From positions 3,069,836 through 3,133,835 of the forward strand of contig CP024912.1 of assembly GCA_002813895.1 (NCBI GenBank): a DNA stretch of 64,000 nt, in the 5' to 3' direction. The notes beneath the pieces are model-generated. The model ran no database searches and was not told the DNA's origin. It saw only the letters and a program-made list of their open reading frames with translations. This DNA comes from Cyanobacterium sp. HL-69 (GTDB taxonomy: Bacteria; Cyanobacteriota; Cyanobacteriia; Cyanobacteriales; Cyanobacteriaceae). Shown in pieces: positions 4,020 through 64,000 of the stretch (within the stretch, counting starts at the first letter, position 1; each line of letters starts with the position of its first letter). The position numbers were made by a program, and so were the translations under genes.

Positions 4020-6877
4020 CTACCTACAGCATTAGAATAATTCCAACACCGATCGCACTTACGCCCTTCTGCATTAACTACTGCTACCTTAAGAGTAGTA
4101 TCCGTTAAAGTGATTTCCCCTCGATATTCACTCTCATCCAACGCAGACTCATCATCCACTAACTCCACCTGAGATACTAACAAGAGATAACGCAACTCAT
4201 CCACCCTGTTACCATCATTAAGCGCATCATCAGGATTTAGACTTGCCAAAGTGTCGGCTAACTTACCAGTGGTGTCATATACCAACACCTTCGCCTCTAA
4301 AGAAGCACCGATGAGCTTTTGGTTACGGGCATCATCTAAAATCTTATTAACTCCCGTGCGAATATGGCGTAATTCCTGCCATTTTTGGGCAAATTCAGGG
4401 CTTTGCACCCATTCAGGTTTTAAATTAACCCAACCCGCCTCAAACACGGAATTACAAGGTTTCTCATAGGGTAAGTTTTGCCAAATATCCTCCGCCATGT
4501 GACATAGTACAGGAGCGATCGCCCTTACCAGATTTTCTAGTATAATAGCCATAACAGTTTGACAACTGCGACGACGAGCAGAATTAGGGTCAGAAATATA
4601 AAGCCTATCTTTCGCAATATCCAGATAGAAATTAGAAAGATCAACTACACAGAAATTTTGCACCTTCTGGAAGAACTTGAAAAATTGGAAACTCTCGTAA
4701 GCCTCAGTAATTTCCGTAAAAACCTGATGGGTTTCATGCAAAATGTACTTGTCCAACTCAGGTAAATCAGCATAACTCACCGCATTTTGAGTAGGATCAA
4801 AATCATGTAAACTACCGATTAAAAATCGAGCCGTATTACGAATCTTACGATAAACATCCGCCAACTGCTTGATGATACTATCCCCAATGCGCACATCCCC
4901 AGAATAGTCCGTAGAAGATACCCAAAGCCTCAACACATCAGCACCGTAAGGAGGTTGTTGTTTTTGATTTTTACCCCCATTAATGATTAAATTAGGATCA
5001 ACCACATTACCGATAGACTTACTCATCTTCATGCCCTTTTCATCCAACACAAAACCATGGGTTAACACAGTCTTATAAGGCGCATGACCATTTACCGCTA
5101 CACTGGTTAAAAGACTAGACTGGAACCAGCCTCGATGTTGATCAGATCCCTCCAAATATAGATCCACAGGGTATTTCAATTCCTCCCGTTGATTTGCCAC
5201 CGCCGCCCAAGACGAACCAGAGTCAAACCAAACATCCATGGTATCCATACCCTTACGGTAGGTTTTACCATCGTTGCGGTAACTTTCAGGCAATAACTCC
5301 TCCACCGACATCAACCACCAAGCATCAGAACCCTTTTCCTTGATAATATCTCTCACATGGTTAACAGTCTCCTCATTTAACAAAGGCTCATTAGTTTTCT
5401 CATCATAAAACACAGGAATCGGTAAACCCCAACTACGTTGACGGGAGATACACCAATCGCTTCTCTCACTTACCATAGGAGTAATTCTATTTTCCCCCTG
5501 CGCAGGAATCCAGTTAACCTCTTTGATAGCCTTTAATGCTTCCTCTCTGAAACCATCCACCGAAGCAAACCATTGCTCCGTTGCCCTAAAAATGGTCGGC
5601 TTTTTGGTACGCCAATCATAGGGATACTTGTGTTCGTAGGCTTCCTCTTTTAATAAGCTACCTTTACCCGTTAAAGCATCAATAATGGCTCGGTTGGCAT
5701 CTTTTAAGACATTTAAGCTCTGAAATTCCCCTGCTTCCTCCGTAAGATTCCCTTTATCATCCACAGGAGAAAGAATTGGTAAATTATACTTCTGCCCTGT
5801 CATATAGTCTTCTTGTCCATGACCAGGAGCAGTATGTACTAATCCTGTACCAGATTCTGTAGTGATATAGTCACCACCGATAACGACGGGGCTTTCTCTG
5901 TCAAAGAGGGGATGTTGGTAAGTGGATAATTCTAAATCTGCACCTTTGATGGTGGTTTTAACTTCTAATTTAACACCGAAGGTATTACCAAGGCTTTCTA
6001 CTAAATCTTGAGCAACAATGAGGAATTGCCCCCCCCTTATTAAGGGGGGTTGGGGGGAATCATTTTCCGCAATTACCTCCACCACAGCATAATCTAACCT
6101 GCTATTAACCGCTACTGCCAAGTTACCAGGAATTGTCCAAGGGGTAGTCGTCCAGATAGCAACACCCAAATTAGGCATATATTTCTCTAAACTAGAGGCT
6201 TTATCACTCAACTTAGTGATAGTGAAACTAGCATAGATACTGCGAGAAACGTGTCCTTGAGGATATTCTAATTCTGCTTCAGCGAGGGCGGTTTGAGAAC
6301 TAGGACTCCAATGAACAGGTTTTAAACCACGGTAAATATAACCATTGATGGCCATTTTGCCAAATACTTCCATTTGGGCTGCTTCATATTCAGGTTTGAG
6401 GGTGAGGTAAGGGTTTTCCCAGTCTCCCCAGATGCCATAGCGTTTAAATCCTTCGGCTTGTTTTTTTTGGGTTTTGATGGCAAAGTCACGGGCTTTATAC
6501 CTTAGTTTAATGGGGGTTAACTCAGCCCTTTTTTCTTTTTCGATGCTTTGTAATACTTTTAATTCGATGGGTAAACCGTGGCAATCCCAACCAGGCACAT
6601 AACGAACTTTATGCCCTTGTAATAGTTTATATTTATTGATAATATCTTTTAGAACTTTGTTTAAGGCATGACCCATGTGTAAGTCACCGTTGGCATAAGG
6701 GGGGCCGTCATGGAGGACAAATAATTCTTTGGGGTTATTTTCGGCTAGATTTTCATATATTTTATTTTCTGCCCAAAATTTTTGCAATTCTGGCTCTTTT
6801 TGTACCGCATTAGCTCTCATATTAAAGCTAGTTTGGGGCAAATTTACGGTATCTTTATAATTTTTAGGTTCACTCAT
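3959..6877 (-). CDS. ileS: Isoleucyl-tRNA synthetase
   Basis: Charges tRNA-Ile; class I synthetase of 972 residues. Seen: the HIGH-type motif HMGH (67-70), KMSKS (617-621) and a C-terminal zinc knuckle with CDRCWNY and CDRCKEA. Odd: about 12 extra residues, SPQPPLIRGG and neighbours (about 272-284, in the editing-domain region), are encoded by a perfect palindromic repeat at 6029-6057 that also occurs between genes elsewhere in the window. The ATG start gives MSEPKNYKDT. Its 3' end is duplicated beyond the adjoining restriction-modification pair. Confidence 0.97.
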   Translation of the reverse strand: MSEPKNYKDTVNLPQTSFNMRANAVQKEPELQKFWAENKIYENLAENNPKELFVLHDGPPYANGDLHMGHALNKVLKDIINKYKLLQGHKVRYVPGWDCHGLPIELKVLQSIEKEKRAELTPIKLRYKARDFAIKTQKKQAEGFKRYGIWGDWENPYLTLKPEYEAAQMEVFGKMAINGYIYRGLKPVHWSPSSQTALAEAELEYPQGHVSRSIYASFTITKLSDKASSLEKYMPNLGVAIWTTTPWTIPGNLAVAVNSRLDYAVVEVIAENDSPQPPLIRGGQFLIVAQDLVESLGNTFGVKLEVKTTIKGADLELSTYQHPLFDRESPVVIGGDYITTESGTGLVHTAPGHGQEDYMTGQKYNLPILSPVDDKGNLTEEAGEFQSLNVLKDANRAIIDALTGKGSLLKEEAYEHKYPYDWRTKKPTIFRATEQWFASVDGFREEALKAIKEVNWIPAQGENRITPMVSERSDWCISRQRSWGLPIPVFYDEKTNEPLLNEETVNHVRDIIKEKGSDAWWLMSVEELLPESYRNDGKTYRKGMDTMDVWFDSGSSWAAVANQREELKYPVDLYLEGSDQHRGWFQSSLLTSVAVNGHAPYKTVLTHGFVLDEKGMKMSKSIGNVVDPNLIINGGKNQKQQPPYGADVLRLWVSSTDYSGDVRIGDSIIKQLADVYRKIRNTARFLIGSLHDFDPTQNAVSYADLPELDKYILHETHQVFTEITEAYESFQFFKFFQKVQNFCVVDLSNFYLDIAKDRLYISDPNSARRRSCQTVMAIILENLVRAIAPVLCHMAEDIWQNLPYEKPCNSVFEAGWVNLKPEWVQSPEFAQKWQELRHIRTGVNKILDDARNQKLIGASLEAKVLVYDTTGKLADTLASLNPDDALNDGNRVDELRYLLLVSQVELVDDESALDESEYRGEITLTDTTLKVAVVNAEGRKCDRCWNYSNAVGSFVDEPLICDRCKEALAGNF
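6029..6057. repeat. Palindromic repeat inserted in frame within ileS
   Basis: Core CCCCCCTTATTAAGGGGGG with a TTGGGGGG tail. Translated on the minus strand it gives SPQPPLIRGG. Related copies are at 15537-15565 and 17883-17911, both intergenic. Confidence 0.8.
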
Positions 6878-7000
6878 GGATAAGAGAGATTAATTAATAT
6901 AACTTTTTACATTCTGCTATTGTATTGCGAATAGGTGTTGTATCTCAATGTCAAAATTGACGAAGAAAGACTTAATCGAATTATTTTTAACTATAAAAAA

Positions 7001-7017
7001 AGAGGGATAATCCCTCT
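7001..7017 (-). terminator. Terminator of ycf34
   Basis: AGAGGGAT-A-ATCCCTCT perfect inverted repeat followed on the minus strand by seven T residues. It lies 33 bp beyond the ycf34 stop. Confidence 0.85.
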
Positions 7018-7049
7018 GTGATGAAAAAATTAATCAGCTTTGCTGTTAT

Positions 7050-7298
7050 CTAAGTGGGAATTGCTTCTCCGGGGCGTAGTTTTGCCCATTTATTTTTTTC
7101 CTCTGTAAAGCTATCACAACCGACAACATCCCACTCAGTTTCTATATAGTCTTCACGGGTGCGAATATTGACGTTTATGGAAGGATTTTCTGGCTCAAAA
7201 CTAGGATTGTTTGTTAAATGGGGTTGCTCATGTTGAGTTTCTACGGCATGATAAGTATTGCAACGATCAACGTAGTAACAGTTTACACAGATACACAT
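7050..7298 (-). CDS. ycf34: Ycf34 family iron-sulfur protein
   Basis: 82 residues, conserved in cyanobacteria and some algal plastids; the family is reported to bind an Fe-S cluster and influence photosynthetic electron transport. The N-terminal cysteines Cys2, Cys4, Cys7 and Cys13 (MCICVNC...DRC) are the likely ligands, and the C-terminal EWDVVGCDSF...KWAKLRPGE block is the family hallmark. Monocistronic: it has its own terminator and is divergent from the CCA-adding enzyme gene 67 bp away. Confidence 0.9.
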   Translation of the reverse strand: MCICVNCYYVDRCNTYHAVETQHEQPHLTNNPSFEPENPSINVNIRTREDYIETEWDVVGCDSFTEEKNKWAKLRPGEAIPT

Positions 7299-7365
7299 AG
7301 GCTTTTTCTCCGACTGTCTCTACTTCCTAATCTAGCTTAATTTTAATAAGGTTGGTTATTTATTA

Positions 7366-8589
7366 ATGTTTATTGCGGATTTTTTAAGACAAGTATTGCC
7401 TTTTGATTTGGATTTGTTGCCCCCTGATGCTTTTTTGGTGGGGGGAGTGGTTAGGGATGCTTTATTGCACAGGAGAAGGGATTATATTGATTTAGATTTT
7501 GTTTTACCCCATGGGGCTATTCAAACGGCGAAGTTTATTGCTAATAAGTATGGCGCTGGGTTTGTGGTGTTGGATGCGGGGCGGGAGATTGCTAGGGTGG
7601 TTTTTCCTTCGGCAACGGTGGATTTTGCTAGACAGGAGGGGGATTGTTTGGTGGATGATTTATATCGTCGTGATTTTTGTCTAAATGCGATCGCCCTTAA
7701 CCTATATACTGAGGAAATAGTAGATCCCTTAGAAGGTCAAAAAGATTTAGAGAAAGGTATCATCAGAATGGTATCACCAAAAAACCTTGAAGATGACCCC
7801 CTCAGAATTTTAAGGGCTTATCGTCAAGCCTCCCAATTAGGTTTTAAAATTACCCCTGATACCCGTAAAACTTTGCAAAAATTAGCCCCTCTTCTGTCTC
7901 GGGTAGCGGCGGAAAGGGTAAAGAGTGAATTAGACTATCTCTTACAATCGAAGAATGGTTGTCATTGGTTACAATTGGCTTATGAAGATAATATATTATC
8001 CCATTGGTTAGCAAATATTACCTCAGAAAGTATTGTTAATTTATTGAAAATAGATCTAATTTTAAGTAATCTTGCACAAAAATATACCCCATTTCAAAAT
8101 CTATCTTCAGAGTTTTTAGGATTAGCAAAATTATCTTGTTTAACTTCTAATGTTCCTGAATTAGTTCAAGAGGAATTAATTAATTTAAAGTGTTCTAAAA
8201 ATGAGATTAAAACGGTAACTACTATTATTAAATATCTTCCTAAGTTACTTAATTTTAATTTTAATACTACCCTTAGAGAACAGTATTTTTTCTTTCTTCA
8301 TGTTGGTGATACTTTTCCTTTAATAGCTTTTAGGGCAATAGCTTCTAACCCTGAAAATAAATCGACAATATATCAATTAACAGAGCGTTATTTCAACCAA
8401 AATGATTTAGTAGCCCATCCTCAATCATTGATTACAGGAAATGATCTTATAAATGAACTAAATTTTAAACCAAGTCCATTAATAAAAGAAATATTAATAG
8501 AAGTACAAATTGCCCATTTAGAAAACAAAATTAATAATAAACAAGAAGCCCTTATTTTTGCTCAAAAATATTGTAATGAAAATCTCTAA
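7366..8589 (+). CDS. cca: CCA tRNA nucleotidyltransferase / poly(A) polymerase family
   Basis: Class II nucleotidyltransferase, 407 residues, that adds or repairs the 3' CCA of tRNAs; a poly(A) polymerase role is possible, as the two activities share one fold. Seen: GGVVRD at 26-31, the metal-binding DLD at 42-44, RRDFCLNAIAL near 103-113 and LRILRAYRQASQLGF (neck helix). No HD domain is evident. The ATG start (MFIADFLRQ) has no strong Shine-Dalgarno. The 3' half is noticeably more AT-rich than the 5' half. Confidence 0.85.
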   Translation: MFIADFLRQVLPFDLDLLPPDAFLVGGVVRDALLHRRRDYIDLDFVLPHGAIQTAKFIANKYGAGFVVLDAGREIARVVFPSATVDFARQEGDCLVDDLYRRDFCLNAIALNLYTEEIVDPLEGQKDLEKGIIRMVSPKNLEDDPLRILRAYRQASQLGFKITPDTRKTLQKLAPLLSRVAAERVKSELDYLLQSKNGCHWLQLAYEDNILSHWLANITSESIVNLLKIDLILSNLAQKYTPFQNLSSEFLGLAKLSCLTSNVPELVQEELINLKCSKNEIKTVTTIIKYLPKLLNFNFNTTLREQYFFFLHVGDTFPLIAFRAIASNPENKSTIYQLTERYFNQNDLVAHPQSLITGNDLINELNFKPSPLIKEILIEVQIAHLENKINNKQEALIFAQKYCNENL

Positions 8590-8618
8590 TTATTTACCCA
8601 TATTAGTCATATATCTAA

Positions 8619-8638
8619 CAAGGGGCTTAAGCCCCTTG
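8619..8638. repeat. Dispersed palindrome, probable terminator after cca
   Basis: CAAGGGGCTTAAGCCCCTTG is a perfect 20-bp palindrome 30 bp past the cca stop. Close relatives are at 11772-11791, 13272-13290, 24353-24371 and 54757-54775. Confidence 0.75.
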
Positions 8639-8770
8639 CCTTGTCATCACTCCCTCTTTCTTGTCTCTTATTCATCTGATTAATTCATCTTTTCATGAAG
8701 CCTTGCGTAGTGATTATTGATTTTGTGAAACCAAATAAAGGACAATAGAAAAATATTAAATCTTAAAAAA

Positions 8771-9586
8771 ATGATACCTATGAAGTCAAAAAAAATAGAT
8801 AATTTACCTTTAAAAGCTATTTTAGAAGATACCCTAACTATTTTCTGGGCTGAATGGTTAGATTTACGGGCAAGAATGGCTCAAATTGCCTCTACGGGGT
8901 TAATTTCACCGTTAATATATGTCCTTGCTTTTGGCTTGGGTTTGGGCAATACCATTGATAGGGTTAGCACTCCTGCGGTGGGGGATAATTATTTAGAGTT
9001 TATTTTGCCTGGGATGGTGGCGCTATCTTCCATGACGATTAGTTTTGGGGGGACTACTTTTTCCATATGTGGCGATCGCCTTTTTAGCAAAACTTTTGAC
9101 GAGTTGTTATTATTACCAGTACATCCCCTTGCTTTACATTTAGGAAAAGTGTTGGCAGGAATTGTGAGGGGGTTAATGACGGCATTTTCTGTGATACTGG
9201 TGGCAATTCTGTTTACAGGGAAGGTTTTCAGTTTTATTAATCCCCTGTTTATTTTAGTTGTAATCCTCAATTGTGCTGTTTTTGCTGGAATTGGGGTAAT
9301 TATCGGTTTAAGGGTCAAATCCCTTGAATCTGTGGGGCTTTACAACAACTTTTTGATCGTGCCGATGTCCTTTTTAGGAGGTACCTTTTTCTCCCCAGAA
9401 AGCCTACCGATGGTTTTAAAGGTGATTGTTTATTTACTACCCCTAACCTACACTACCACTGCTTTAAGAGCGGCGGCTTATCAACCCATCAGCGTTTTTC
9501 CTTGGTATAGTATTCCTATACTATTAGTAATTGCGATCGCACTGGCTTTTGTGGGTGCTTATCAATTTTCCCATCAACAAGAATAA
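8771..9586 (+). CDS. ABC-2 type transporter permease
   Basis: 271-residue integral membrane protein with about six hydrophobic segments after a polar N-terminus. Seen: FILPGMVALSSM and a late LGGTFFSPESLP-type loop, both typical of NodJ/ABC-2 permeases that export polysaccharides, lipids or drugs. No ATPase gene is adjacent, so its partner must be elsewhere and the substrate is unknown. Start may be ATG 8771 or ATG 8780 (MKSKKIDNL). Confidence 0.85.
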   Translation: MIPMKSKKIDNLPLKAILEDTLTIFWAEWLDLRARMAQIASTGLISPLIYVLAFGLGLGNTIDRVSTPAVGDNYLEFILPGMVALSSMTISFGGTTFSICGDRLFSKTFDELLLLPVHPLALHLGKVLAGIVRGLMTAFSVILVAILFTGKVFSFINPLFILVVILNCAVFAGIGVIIGLRVKSLESVGLYNNFLIVPMSFLGGTFFSPESLPMVLKVIVYLLPLTYTTTALRAAAYQPISVFPWYSIPILLVIAIALAFVGAYQFSHQQE

Positions 9587-9587
9587 C

Positions 9588-9635
9588 TAGAGATTAGGTA
9601 GTAGGATTTAGGGGTTAGGTATTAGGTTTAATACG
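9588..9635. repeat. Short tandem degenerate repeat (TTAGG-rich)
   Basis: Runs of ATTAGGTAGTAGGATTTAGG-like units between convergent genes, resembling the short tandemly repeated heptamer tracts common in cyanobacterial intergenic DNA. Confidence 0.5.
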
Positions 9636-9664
9636 CACCGCCGTAAAAGCTGAAGCCTTAGCGG

Positions 9665-10399
9665 TTAAAAATGATTTTTAAAAAGTAAAGTACCTTTACC
9701 CTGTTGCATGGGTAAGGTATTGATGATATTTTCTTGGGCGCAATATTCCAAATCATCCACGAGATTAAGTCTCACTAATCTTTGTCCATGACTGGCGAGG
9801 GAGAATAATTTTACTAAATCATGTTGCCATTGTTGATAAAGTGCGATCGCACTAATAACCTCATCATTACCAATCATATCTATATCATAGTTGGAAATGA
9901 GCCTGGAGGCGATCTCTCCTGCGCAGATAGTATCCTCAAGGGAATAACCCCCCTCCCAACCTGAGCCCACCAACCAGACATTTTCGGGTTTTGTTTGCTC
10001 CAAAAAATCAACTACCGCCCCAAAATTAATCATCGCCCCAGTGACTACCACCTCAGCATTTTGCACCCTCTGCAAAGCCCTAGTGCCATTAGTTGTGCTA
10101 ATAAACAACTGCTTATCCTTTACCACTTCAGGGGTACAATCAAGGGGAGAATTACCCATATCACAAGACTCAACCTTTTTTCCTCCTCTTTCCCCTAATC
10201 TTAACCTTTTCTCAGAAGACAAAGACTCACTCTGTGCTAATAATAAATCAATATCACTAAAAGCCCTTACCGACTCCGCCCCTGCATCTATCGCCGTCGC
10301 CATGGTAGTAGTGGCACGAAGTACATCAATAACCACAGCGCAATCAGGCACTTGATTTTCAGGAGTTGACTCAGGAGTATGATAAACAGAAATTTTCAC
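9665..10399 (-). CDS. comB: 2-phosphosulfolactate phosphatase family protein
   Basis: 244 residues of the ComB family, Mg-dependent acid phosphatases first described in coenzyme M synthesis. Seen: VIDVLRATTTMATAIDAGAE near residues 23-42, RLGERGGKKVESCDMGNSP, FISTTNGTRAL and GSGWEGGYSLEDTICAG. Cyanobacteria make no coenzyme M, so the physiological substrate here is unclear. It is convergent with the ABC permease gene and has its own ATG start (MKISVYHTPE). Confidence 0.85.
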   Translation of the reverse strand: MKISVYHTPESTPENQVPDCAVVIDVLRATTTMATAIDAGAESVRAFSDIDLLLAQSESLSSEKRLRLGERGGKKVESCDMGNSPLDCTPEVVKDKQLFISTTNGTRALQRVQNAEVVVTGAMINFGAVVDFLEQTKPENVWLVGSGWEGGYSLEDTICAGEIASRLISNYDIDMIGNDEVISAIALYQQWQHDLVKLFSLASHGQRLVRLNLVDDLEYCAQENIINTLPMQQGKGTLLFKNHF

Positions 10400-10476
10400 G
10401 ATGATTATTTTACCTATGCTTTCACAATCAGCAATTATATATCACCGAGGGAATCTCCGTTAGTTTAACCATTGGT

Positions 10477-59413: not shown

Positions 59414-61610
59414 ATGAATGTTAACGAGCAAAAAAACTCTGGTTTAAGTGCCTTTGGTGGTGTTTATACCCCTTCTATCTTGACCATTTTGGGGGTAATT
59501 ATGTATCTCCGCTTTGGTTGGGTGGTGGGCAATGTGGGCTTGTTGGGTACGTTTTTAATTGTCATCCTTTCAAGTCTGATTACCTTTTTAACGGCTTTTT
59601 CGGTATGTGCGATCGCCACTGACCGAGTAGTGAGGGCAGGGGGTGCATACTATATGATTAGTCGCTCTTTGGGCATTGAAACAGGGGGGGCGGTAGGTAT
59701 TCCTTTATATCTGGCTCAGGCGTTATCTGTCGCCCTCTATACCCTTGGTTTTGCTGAAAGTGTGGTGCAAATTTTTCCTGCTTGGTCAGATTATCAACTG
59801 TATATCGCTTTGGCTATCACCATTGGCGTGGGTATCTTAGCCCTCACCAGTGCTGAAATTGCTATCAAGGCTCAATATTTTATTATGGTGGCGATCGCCC
59901 TTTCCTTGCTATCCTTCTTTTTTGGGCAACCCGTAGAAGAAACTCAACTGGAATGGTGGAGAAGCACAGATCAATCTTTTTGGCAAGTATTTGCGGTGTT
60001 TTTTCCTGCCGTGACGGGCATCATGGCGGGGGTTAATATGTCAGGGGATTTATAAAGATCCTACCAAAGCCTTACCCATTGGCACTTTAGCCGCTGTGGG
60101 TACTGGTTTTCTTATTTATATGATTATTCCCATTTTCCTAGGCTTGAGGGCTAATGCTCAAACTTTAATTGATGAACCCTTTATCATGGCAAGGATGTCT
60201 TTTTGGGGAGGGGCGATCGCCCTTGGAGTATGGGGAACGACACTCAGTAGTGCCATTGGTAGCATTTTGGGCGCACCGAGGGTGTTACAAGCTCTCGTCA
60301 GAGATAATATTTTTCCTAAATCCCTCAGTTTTTTGGGGCAAGGGGCAGGAAAAAATGATGAACCAAGATTAGGTACAGCGGTAACTTTAGGCATTGCCGT
60401 AGCGGCGGTATGCTTGGGTGATTTAAACTTGATTGCCCCTATCCTCACCATGTTTTTTCTTACCACCTATTTAGTCTTGAATGCCTCCGCAGGTATTGAA
60501 AGTTTTCTTGATTCCCCCTCCTTTCGCCCCACCTTCAAAATCCATTGGAGTTTGTCGGTGATGGGTGCTTTGGGTTGTTTAGGGGTGATGTTTCTCATAA
60601 ATGCGATCGCCACTATTTTCGCCGCCATCATCGTTTTAGGCATTTACCTATATCTGCAACGACAAGAATTAGAAGTAACATGGGGAGACAGCCGTAGGGG
60701 AATGTGGATGGCACTTGTACGCACAGGGATTTATCAAGTAGAAGAAGAAATTGCCGATCCCAAAAATTGGCGCCCCCATATCCTTACCTTCTTCCATTCC
60801 CCCCAAAAAAATTGGTCATTAGTCAAACTAGCCGATAGTTTTAACCATAAAGGCTTCTTAACCGTTGCCAGTGTGATTCCCCAAAGGAGAGACTATCAAA
60901 GTAAGCAAAACTTGGAAAATACAGTCAAAGAGTATTTAACCAAAAATCAAGTACAAGGATTAGTCAAAATTATTCGCTCTGATGACACCTTTGGGGTAAT
61001 TCCTCAATTAGTAGAAAGCTACGGTATCGGTGCTTTAATTCCTAATACAATCATCCTTGGCAGTAGCACCGCTTGGTTAAAAGAAGATTGGGAAACCCAT
61101 CAACAATATAGTCAGATGGTAACTCAAATCCATGAGCTAAAAAGAAATATTCTTATCTTGAAACAAAACCCCCAACAGCAATTGAAACAATATCGTCGCA
61201 TTGATGTGTGGTGGGGAGGAATTCAAGCTAATGGTAGTCTGATGATTTTACTTGCCTACCTACTCAAAAATGACTGGGATTGGTCACGGGCAAACATTTA
61301 CCTCAAATTAGTCGTCCGTAATCCTAATGCCTTAAAATCAACCAAAAATAACATTAAAGCACTTATTGAAAAACTAAATATAGAATTAATCCCCGAAATT
61401 ATTGTTAGTGATGAAAGCTCCTTTGAGACTATTTTAAAAGAAAACTCTCAAGGTGCTGATTTAATATTTTTAGGATTAGCCTCTCCCGCTGAAAATTTTG
61501 CTCAATATTATCATAGTTGGTTGAAAAGAACGGAAAATCTACCTACCATTGCCTTTGTCATGGCGGCTAATGATTTTCCCTTTGAGGAGGTTTTACAAAA
61601 AGAAGGATGA
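59414..61610 (+). pseudogene. SLC12-like cation-chloride cotransporter, interrupted by a 1-base insertion
   Basis: Two frames, 59414-60055 and 60054-61610, together make one ~730-residue protein. The first ends MSGDL-stop; an extra T at 60053 (or the preceding TTAT) breaks the MSGDLKDPTKALPIG motif that the next frame continues with KDPTKALPIGT. Twelve-helix APC-type permease: GGVYTPSILTILGVIMYLRFGW (N-terminus, in part), GGAYYMISRSLG, then a soluble C-terminal domain. Without the T it would be intact, so either a recent mutation, a sequencing error, or less likely recoding. Confidence 0.85.
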
Positions 61611-62963: not shown

Positions 62964-64000
62964 ATGCCAGAAATTCAAAAAATTAAACGTACCATTTGTA
63001 TTGGCTTAGGTGGTACAGGAAAAGAAATTTTAATGCAAATTAGACGCTTAATCGTCGATCGCCACGAAAAACTAGAACATTTACCCATTGTTAGCTTTCT
63101 TCACATTGACACCAACAAAGACGAACACAAAACCACAGGATTAAAAAGTGGTGACAGCCATAGAGGGGAAAACCTTTTATTTAAACCCTCGGAAGTAATT
63201 ACCGCTTCTATGAATCGGCAACACATCAATGATTTAACTCAAAGCCTAGACAGAAGTAGAAATAATCAAGAATCATCCCCCTACGATCATATTGGTGAAT
63301 GGTTTGACCCTAAATTACTAAAGAGTTTACAACCCATTGAAAGTGGAGCCAGTGCCATTCGCCCTGTTGGCAGACTAGGATTTTTCCACAACCATAATGA
63401 TATTCGACAAAAGATCGAAAATGCTGATAACCGCACCAACGGACATTCAGAAACTTTGATGAAAAAAAATATTGCCGTAGAACAGGGGTTAAATATTATT
63501 GTTGTGGGTTCTCTGTGTGGTGGTACAGGAAGCGGTACATTCATTGATATGGCTTATACCCTGAGAAGAATGTATCATAACCAAGCGGGAACAGATTTTA
63601 TTGGTTATTTTGTCATCGCCCCCGAACTATATGGCAATAACAACATCTGTCAAGCCAACACCTATGCGGCCCTAAAGGAATTGGATTACTACAGTTCCGA
63701 AAAAAATAGGTTTCAATGTGATTACGATGTTCAAGGTCTTTTTTCTGTCAATGAATCCCGTTCACCTTTTGATTTTTGCTATCTTGTGGGCAATCGAACT
63801 TTTAATAGTCACAAAATATCTAGCAAAGAAAATTTATCATATCTTATTGCCCATCGTATTTTTGCTGAGTTTGCCGAAGAAAATGCCATCAGTAACCGAT
63901 TTAAGGGCATTAGAAATAATAATCAAATTCCCATGCAACTGTGCGATCGTCATTCTCGCCCCAATGTACAAAGATATATTACCTTTGGTCTAGCTAAAAT
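62964..64000 (+). CDS. Tubulin/FtsZ superfamily protein (Tubulin_2-like; partial, C-terminus outside window)
   Basis: The frame is open from ATG 62964 to the end of the window (345 codons). Seen: ICIGLGGTGKE (11-21, first phosphate-binding loop) and LCGGTGSGTF (184-193), the tubulin signature motif GGTGSGT at 186-192. Long inserts between the two (about 60-165) make it unlike FtsZ, and it fits the large tubulin-like family found beside vWA proteins in bacteria. It probably binds GTP and may polymerise. Start chosen as first ATG; AT-rich upstream without clear Shine-Dalgarno. Confidence 0.88.
   Translation, partial: MPEIQKIKRTICIGLGGTGKEILMQIRRLIVDRHEKLEHLPIVSFLHIDTNKDEHKTTGLKSGDSHRGENLLFKPSEVITASMNRQHINDLTQSLDRSRNNQESSPYDHIGEWFDPKLLKSLQPIESGASAIRPVGRLGFFHNHNDIRQKIENADNRTNGHSETLMKKNIAVEQGLNIIVVGSLCGGTGSGTFIDMAYTLRRMYHNQAGTDFIGYFVIAPELYGNNNICQANTYAALKELDYYSSEKNRFQCDYDVQGLFSVNESRSPFDFCYLVGNRTFNSHKISSKENLSYLIAHRIFAEFAEENAISNRFKGIRNNNQIPMQLCDRHSRPNVQRYITFGLAK

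Follow-up and report, generated by a model that had tools for sequence, protein, structure and literature searches.

We found that the tubulin-like gene starting at position 62964 of a 64,000-nucleotide stretch of Cyanobacterium sp. HL-69 DNA (the window; contig positions 3069836–3133835) is the second member of a four-gene operon whose last two genes, lying beyond the window, look like an ion-driven motor of the Zorya/MotAB type. Read past the end of the window, the operon runs on one strand (+) from a von Willebrand factor A (vWA) protein through the tubulin-like protein to a ZorA-like and a ZorB-like protein (Table 1). That the motor, the tubulin-fold GTPase and the membrane vWA-FHA protein form a genetic unit is well supported. 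A further reading, that the four genes make one accessory machine, built on a ZorAB/MotAB-type ion-driven membrane motor and serving chiefly in Zorya-like sensing of attacks on the envelope, is one that we judge to have an even chance of being right.

The original prediction for this DNA, made from the window alone, had proposed that the operon runs on beyond it and holds further members, both ATPases and other membrane proteins. The operon does continue, and the two added genes encode membrane proteins; no gene for an ATPase occurs among the four. Missed in that earlier reading, the two downstream genes would, judged by their sequences, change the likely mechanism. The tubulin-like reading frame stays open to the window's end, placing 345 N-terminal residues inside it, and the gene ends 2107 bases further on. 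A gap of 76 bases separates it from the ZorA-like gene, which in turn stands 8 bases from the ZorB-like gene.

Table 1. Genes of the operon. Position x of sequence L002 corresponds to window position x + 58164.
Feature	Window	L002	Strand	Length (amino acids)
vWA-transmembrane-FHA protein, P0001	61738..62862		+	374
Tubulin_2/FtsZl1 protein, P0002	62964..64000 (part)	4800-7943 (whole)	+	1047
ZorA-like protein, P0003	beyond window	8020-9678	+	552
ZorB-like protein, P0004	beyond window	9687-10433	+	248

The tubulin-like protein, P0002, matches the Pfam family PF13809 (Tubulin_2) over residues 11–366 with an E-value of 8.9e-104 and a score of 348 bits (cut-off 27), and matches PF00091 weakly. The two glycine-rich loops on which the claim of a tubulin-like GTPase had been based fall into place as T1 (GLGGTG, kept in 68 of 72 relatives) and T4 (GGTGSG, in 71 of 72). 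An RDNF motif, which may belong to T7, is kept in 55 of the 72. Our structural results for this protein come from a model of a Nostoc relative (40 sequences; predicted local distance difference test, pLDDT, 84), which is neither P0002 itself nor a solved structure. The model superposes on CetZ (chain 3zid_B) with a Z-score of 24.5 over 299 aligned residues at 3.7 Å, drawn from across model residues 17–854, and on tubulins with Z-scores of about 22–23. The tubulin fold, put forward as a check on the original prediction, is thus matched by profile and by structure. Within the model, a long helical stretch at residues ~386–760 far exceeds what CetZ and tubulin chains can accommodate, which suggests that the coiled coil is inserted into a two-domain tubulin fold, with both tubulin domains kept. 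A sequence search of solved structures with the tubulin alignment returned no relatives, only chance coiled-coil matches. As an observation apart, genome G187 carries, in addition to an operon tubulin gene that is broken, two tandem divergent tubulin-like genes (L199, 27% identity to P0002).

The vWA protein, P0001, which had been described as carrying a MIDAS-like DLTES and one membrane helix, is likewise real, with its gene outside positions 62964–64000, the segment that the prediction covered. The N-terminal segments of its metal-ion-dependent adhesion site (MIDAS) read DLTES, TDIQ and TDAP. Among 73 relatives, the D-x-T-x-S variant occurs in 69, TDIQ in 65 and TDAP in 71; the form DxSxS is in the minority, with 5. 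P0001 is conserved in alignments of 15 and 40 members. Against Pfam, P0001 itself gave no match, and 5 of 15 relatives matched VWA_2, with a best E-value of 3.6e-4. For a Nostoc relative, the AlphaFold model (pLDDT 87) has a predicted vWA part that matched the CLCA1 VWA domain weakly by Foldseek (E 0.08), followed at residues 274–379 by an FHA fold with a Z-score of 11.2 (99 residues, 2.5 Å), for which the best chain was an engineered FHA domain and the next Rad53. The canonical phosphothreonine-binding residues of this fold (GR...SxxH) are found in none of the 73 relatives, and a sequence search of solved structures with the vWA alignment found no relatives. The single membrane helix spans residues 247–265, and by the positive-inside rule the charges around it place the FHA part on the inside in all 40 relatives compared. 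The vWA part would therefore lie outside and the FHA part in the cytoplasm, yet the protein has no visible signal peptide.

By its sequence, P0003 belongs with the MotA/ExbB/TolQ type, having three transmembrane segments by hydropathy, a conserved core and a long, variable coiled-coil tail. It matches the PADLOC model ZorA1 with an E-value of 2.2e-11, the best stretch (residues 108–251) covering the core of transmembrane segments 2 and 3 and the start of the tail. The Pfam and NCBIfam models of TolQ, ExbB and MotA gave no match at E 0.1, and for lack of a TolQ/ExbB profile match we reject ordinary TolQR/ExbBD membership for this subunit. Across 72 copies, the motifs GLxGTxxG(I/V) and EDYLDN occur in 67 and 68, respectively. 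Searching solved structures with ZorA returned mostly coiled coils, with ZorA chain 8vvn_C at E 0.028.

Its partner P0004, with one transmembrane segment by hydropathy, matches PADLOC ZorB1 (E 1.1e-7) and OmpA (E 7.7e-4), and MotB models as well. The charges flanking the transmembrane segments fit a ZorA tail in the cytoplasm and a ZorB OmpA domain in the periplasm. The best solved-structure match is ZorB chain 8vvn_B, whose D24 aligns with D21 here. In Zorya, the ion-pathway aspartate of ZorB, D24 in type I and D21 in type II, is required for defence (PMC11890865). Among 70 ZorB copies, (T/S)DLM(S/A)N is present in 64, GHTD in all 70 and SNxDL...R(A/S) in 69, such that the predicted ion-pathway aspartate and peptidoglycan-binding residues are intact in nearly all of them.

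Homologues of the tubulin gene were found in 28 of 60 sampled genomes of the order Cyanobacteriales, and they fall into two groups: full-length homologues, mostly 37–43% identical, and proteins similar in the N-terminal part only. The group-one loci that we fetched share the order vWA, tubulin, ZorA, ZorB amid varying flanks; those of group two have another vWA protein and another third gene, and lack ZorAB. A profile search of named genomes gave 80 cyanobacterial loci, with all four genes in 70, which bears out the conservation of the vWA-tubulin pair in related cyanobacteria that had been proposed as a check. Many of the remaining 10 loci are cut by contig ends. A few of the 70 complete loci have inserted genes between the members or the ZorB gene set apart (e.g. 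L104, L109 and L112). ZorB accompanies the group-one tubulin in 20 of 21 genomes of the order and occurs in 11 of the 39 without it (Fisher p 3.5e-7). ZorA is also longer beside tubulin, with a median of 554 amino acids versus 409 in stand-alone pairs (p 1.8e-4, from sequences that are not independent).

The operon looks patchily distributed, mobile and accessory. In HL-69 it forms a clean insertion of 7 kb next to hrcA, which lies directly past the ZorB-like gene on the opposite strand, and an SLC12-like transporter gene occupies the other side. Homology to two congeners ends at L002:3449, before the operon, and starts again at 10476, after it; in these congeners the stretch is continuous and the site empty. 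Congener G183 carries the operon 1.4 Mb from hrcA without any homology in the flanks; the matching block begins where the vWA gene starts and closes at the stop of ZorB, and the tubulin is 88% identical. Congener G184 has no match to the operon, and damaged copies occur in several genomes. No transposase inside the inserted stretch, no target-site duplication at its junctions and no insertion mechanism were found in the HL-69 genome.

Outside the cyanobacteria, the gene order tubulin, ZorA-like, ZorB-like recurs in plasmid records of four Deinococcus species, one of which has an insertion sequence between the genes. These copies came from a search of a plasmid collection, so their plasmid location is not evidence of mobility. 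On the one Deinococcus plasmid tested with PADLOC models, ZorA matched at E 1e-8 and ZorB at E 9e-6, and the cyanobacterial ZorA profile independently recovers a ZorA-like protein in all four species. Three Thermales plasmids (L173, L176 and L178) instead encode a vWA protein, a tubulin-like protein, a 677–686-residue protein of no known family and then BrxL, with no recognisable ZorAB at any of the three loci; in Meiothermus, defence genes of the HmaC/DUF1156 type stand directly before the vWA-tubulin pair. A search for carriage by phages gave no match in viral contigs and a single distant one, to a short record lacking annotation. Separately, an Azospirillum plasmid (L174) has a tubulin-like gene amid several caspase-family and OmpA-family genes.

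Operons of this kind have a precedent, correctly named in the original prediction, in the work of Makarova and Koonin (2010), who described FtsZl1 and its partners (vWA, GTPase and OmpA proteins) in a set that included cyanobacteria and who proposed membrane remodelling (PMC2875224). The tubulin family, the vWA neighbour, the OmpA-domain protein and the long helical middle are all alike. That paper makes no mention of MotA/ExbB and treats its OmpA proteins as outer-membrane barrels, whereas here a ZorA-like protein accompanies the OmpA protein, which is an inner-membrane subunit of the MotB/ZorB type. Elements past H5 and the C-terminal domain were unaligned there; here, the predicted structure fits CetZ and tubulin across both parts. 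The vWA/FtsZl1/OmpA operons have been known since 2010, and the motor partner is unnamed in the literature searched. Among the papers that could be searched, which exclude most subscription titles, those on Zorya, the evolution of MotAB and force transducers with vWA domains describe no tubulin next to motors of this kind.

A further likeness is to Zorya (PMC11890865), which shares a long-tailed ZorA-like subunit with three transmembrane segments and a ZorB-like subunit with an ion-pathway aspartate and a peptidoglycan-binding domain. Its partners are ZorC and ZorD (type I) or ZorE (type II), in contrast to the tubulin-fold GTPase and vWA-FHA protein found here. Zorya is an anti-phage system, and anti-phage activity of the present operon is putative. 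We favour Zorya-like sensing of the envelope on account of the profile affinity of the motor, a distribution that is patchy and looks mobile, and the defence genes around the Thermales relatives. Under this reading, ZorB would grip peptidoglycan, and a disturbance of the envelope, by phage entry or wall damage, would let ions pass ZorB Asp21 so that the ZorA ring turns or shifts. The ZorA tail may relay this motion to the cytoplasmic tubulin protein, whose GTP-dependent assembly would be the output, while the vWA-FHA protein might tether or gate the complex at the membrane. The tubulin protein would hold the place that ZorC/D or ZorE take in Zorya. We speculate, tentatively, that the system is a Zorya-like immunity with a cytoskeletal GTPase effector, in which assembly of a tubulin-family polymer is driven or triggered by the ZorA tail of an ion-driven, rotary-type motor; this specific form is possible but rather unlikely.

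Several observations weigh against a Zorya-like role. No Zorya C/D/E-type gene occurs in the operon, and PADLOC models match neither the tubulin nor the vWA protein. PADLOC matches are no commoner in 128 cyanobacterial flank proteins than in 144 controls (81 families each), on which ground we reject a defence-island setting in cyanobacteria; the 25 commonest flank matches listed include neither ZorC nor ZorD nor ZorE. The same ZorAB family occurs in 11 of the 39 genomes without this tubulin, often beside phoH or hisS. Stand-alone ZorA-ZorB pairs were found at L232, L233, L235, L236, L237, L239, L240, L243 and L244, several adjoining phoH or hisS, and their ZorA tails are mostly shorter. In a tree with weak support, ZorB sequences linked to the tubulin are interspersed with those that are not. 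A Geminocystis genome, GBBB08 (L063 / L197), has the tubulin gene alone, with no vWA, ZorA or ZorB gene nearby. Together, the interleaved tree and the tubulin-free ZorAB beside phoH and hisS leave open a housekeeping role in the envelope. In genome G007 (L230:1772-9900), a divergently oriented ZorA-ZorB pair has close by it a short tubulin-like gene of 502 amino acids and a gene for a lipoprotein whose vWA motif reads DGSGS.

The unenriched flanks and the ZorAB pairs alone beside phoH and hisS lead us to give substantial weight to a role in remodelling the membrane or wall, which we nonetheless consider less likely than not. Here, the tubulin would form a scaffold beneath the inner membrane while the ZorAB-like motor would exert force on the peptidoglycan in the manner of TolQR/Pal, which couples ion flow to the envelope, for growth, shape or vesicles and not for defence. 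Membrane remodelling has, after all, already been predicted for FtsZl1 with vWA and OmpA proteins, and the 5:2 class of envelope motors also includes TolQR and MotAB (PMC12204202). The TolQR, ExbBD and vWA force-transducer motors treated there are pentamer:dimer and ion-driven, some with vWA partners; that paper mentions no tubulin, and the A subunit here differs in its profile, being closest, with its B subunit, to ZorA and ZorB and matching no NCBIfam TolQ, ExbB or MotA model. The patchiness within the genus, the relocation of the cassette and the broken copies also point to a dispensable accessory function. The original prediction had offered membrane remodelling or conflict without choosing: nothing directly supports the former, and the latter is possible given the mobile look, the Zorya-like motor and the Thermales relatives beside BREX-type genes, set against the unenriched flanks.

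A conflict system working by a mechanism unlike that of Zorya seems to us improbable. GTP-driven tubulin polymers would trap an invader or signal its presence, the vWA protein would be an adaptor and the motor genes a mere anchor. Tubulin and vWA proteins do occur in the GAP1-N2 GTPase conflict systems of Firmicutes and Actinobacteria (Kaur et al. 2020; PMC7159879), which are alike in having a tubulin with a helical extension and membrane vWA proteins, and the Thermales relatives adjoin BrxL, with HmaC and DUF1156 also present in Meiothermus. The GAP1-N2 systems carry TRAFAC GTPases and FNIII proteins, and MotA is unmentioned in that paper; among the four genes here, there is no P-loop GTPase, TRAFAC GTPase, FNIII or HSP70 partner. 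The kept ion-pathway aspartate and peptidoglycan-binding residues also argue against this scheme, as a bare anchor would not need them. That the ZorAB and vWA-tubulin pairs are neighbours by descent only, as the occurrence of ZorAB alone and of one tubulin gene alone might suggest, is strongly disfavoured by the presence of all four genes at 70 of 80 loci whose flanks differ, their exact co-mobilisation in two congeners and the recurrence in Deinococcus.

FtsZl1/Tubulin_2 proteins have been without an assigned mechanism since 2010, and a ZorAB-type partner offers a testable one, with ion flow coupled to a tubulin-fold GTPase. It suggests, too, that motors of the Zorya type may serve the envelope generally, with cytoplasmic outputs that can be exchanged for one another.

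Two neighbouring genes were also noted. The SLC12-like cation-chloride transporter gene at window positions 59414–61610 is broken into two frames of 213 and 504 amino acids; in two congeners the same gene is a single unbroken frame of 743 and 734 codons. Adjoining hrcA, L002:11654-15901 encodes a 1415-residue protein that, judged by eye, seems to have an N-terminus of the filamentous-haemagglutinin type, has a PEPDPEPI repeat and may end in a CHAT-type region.
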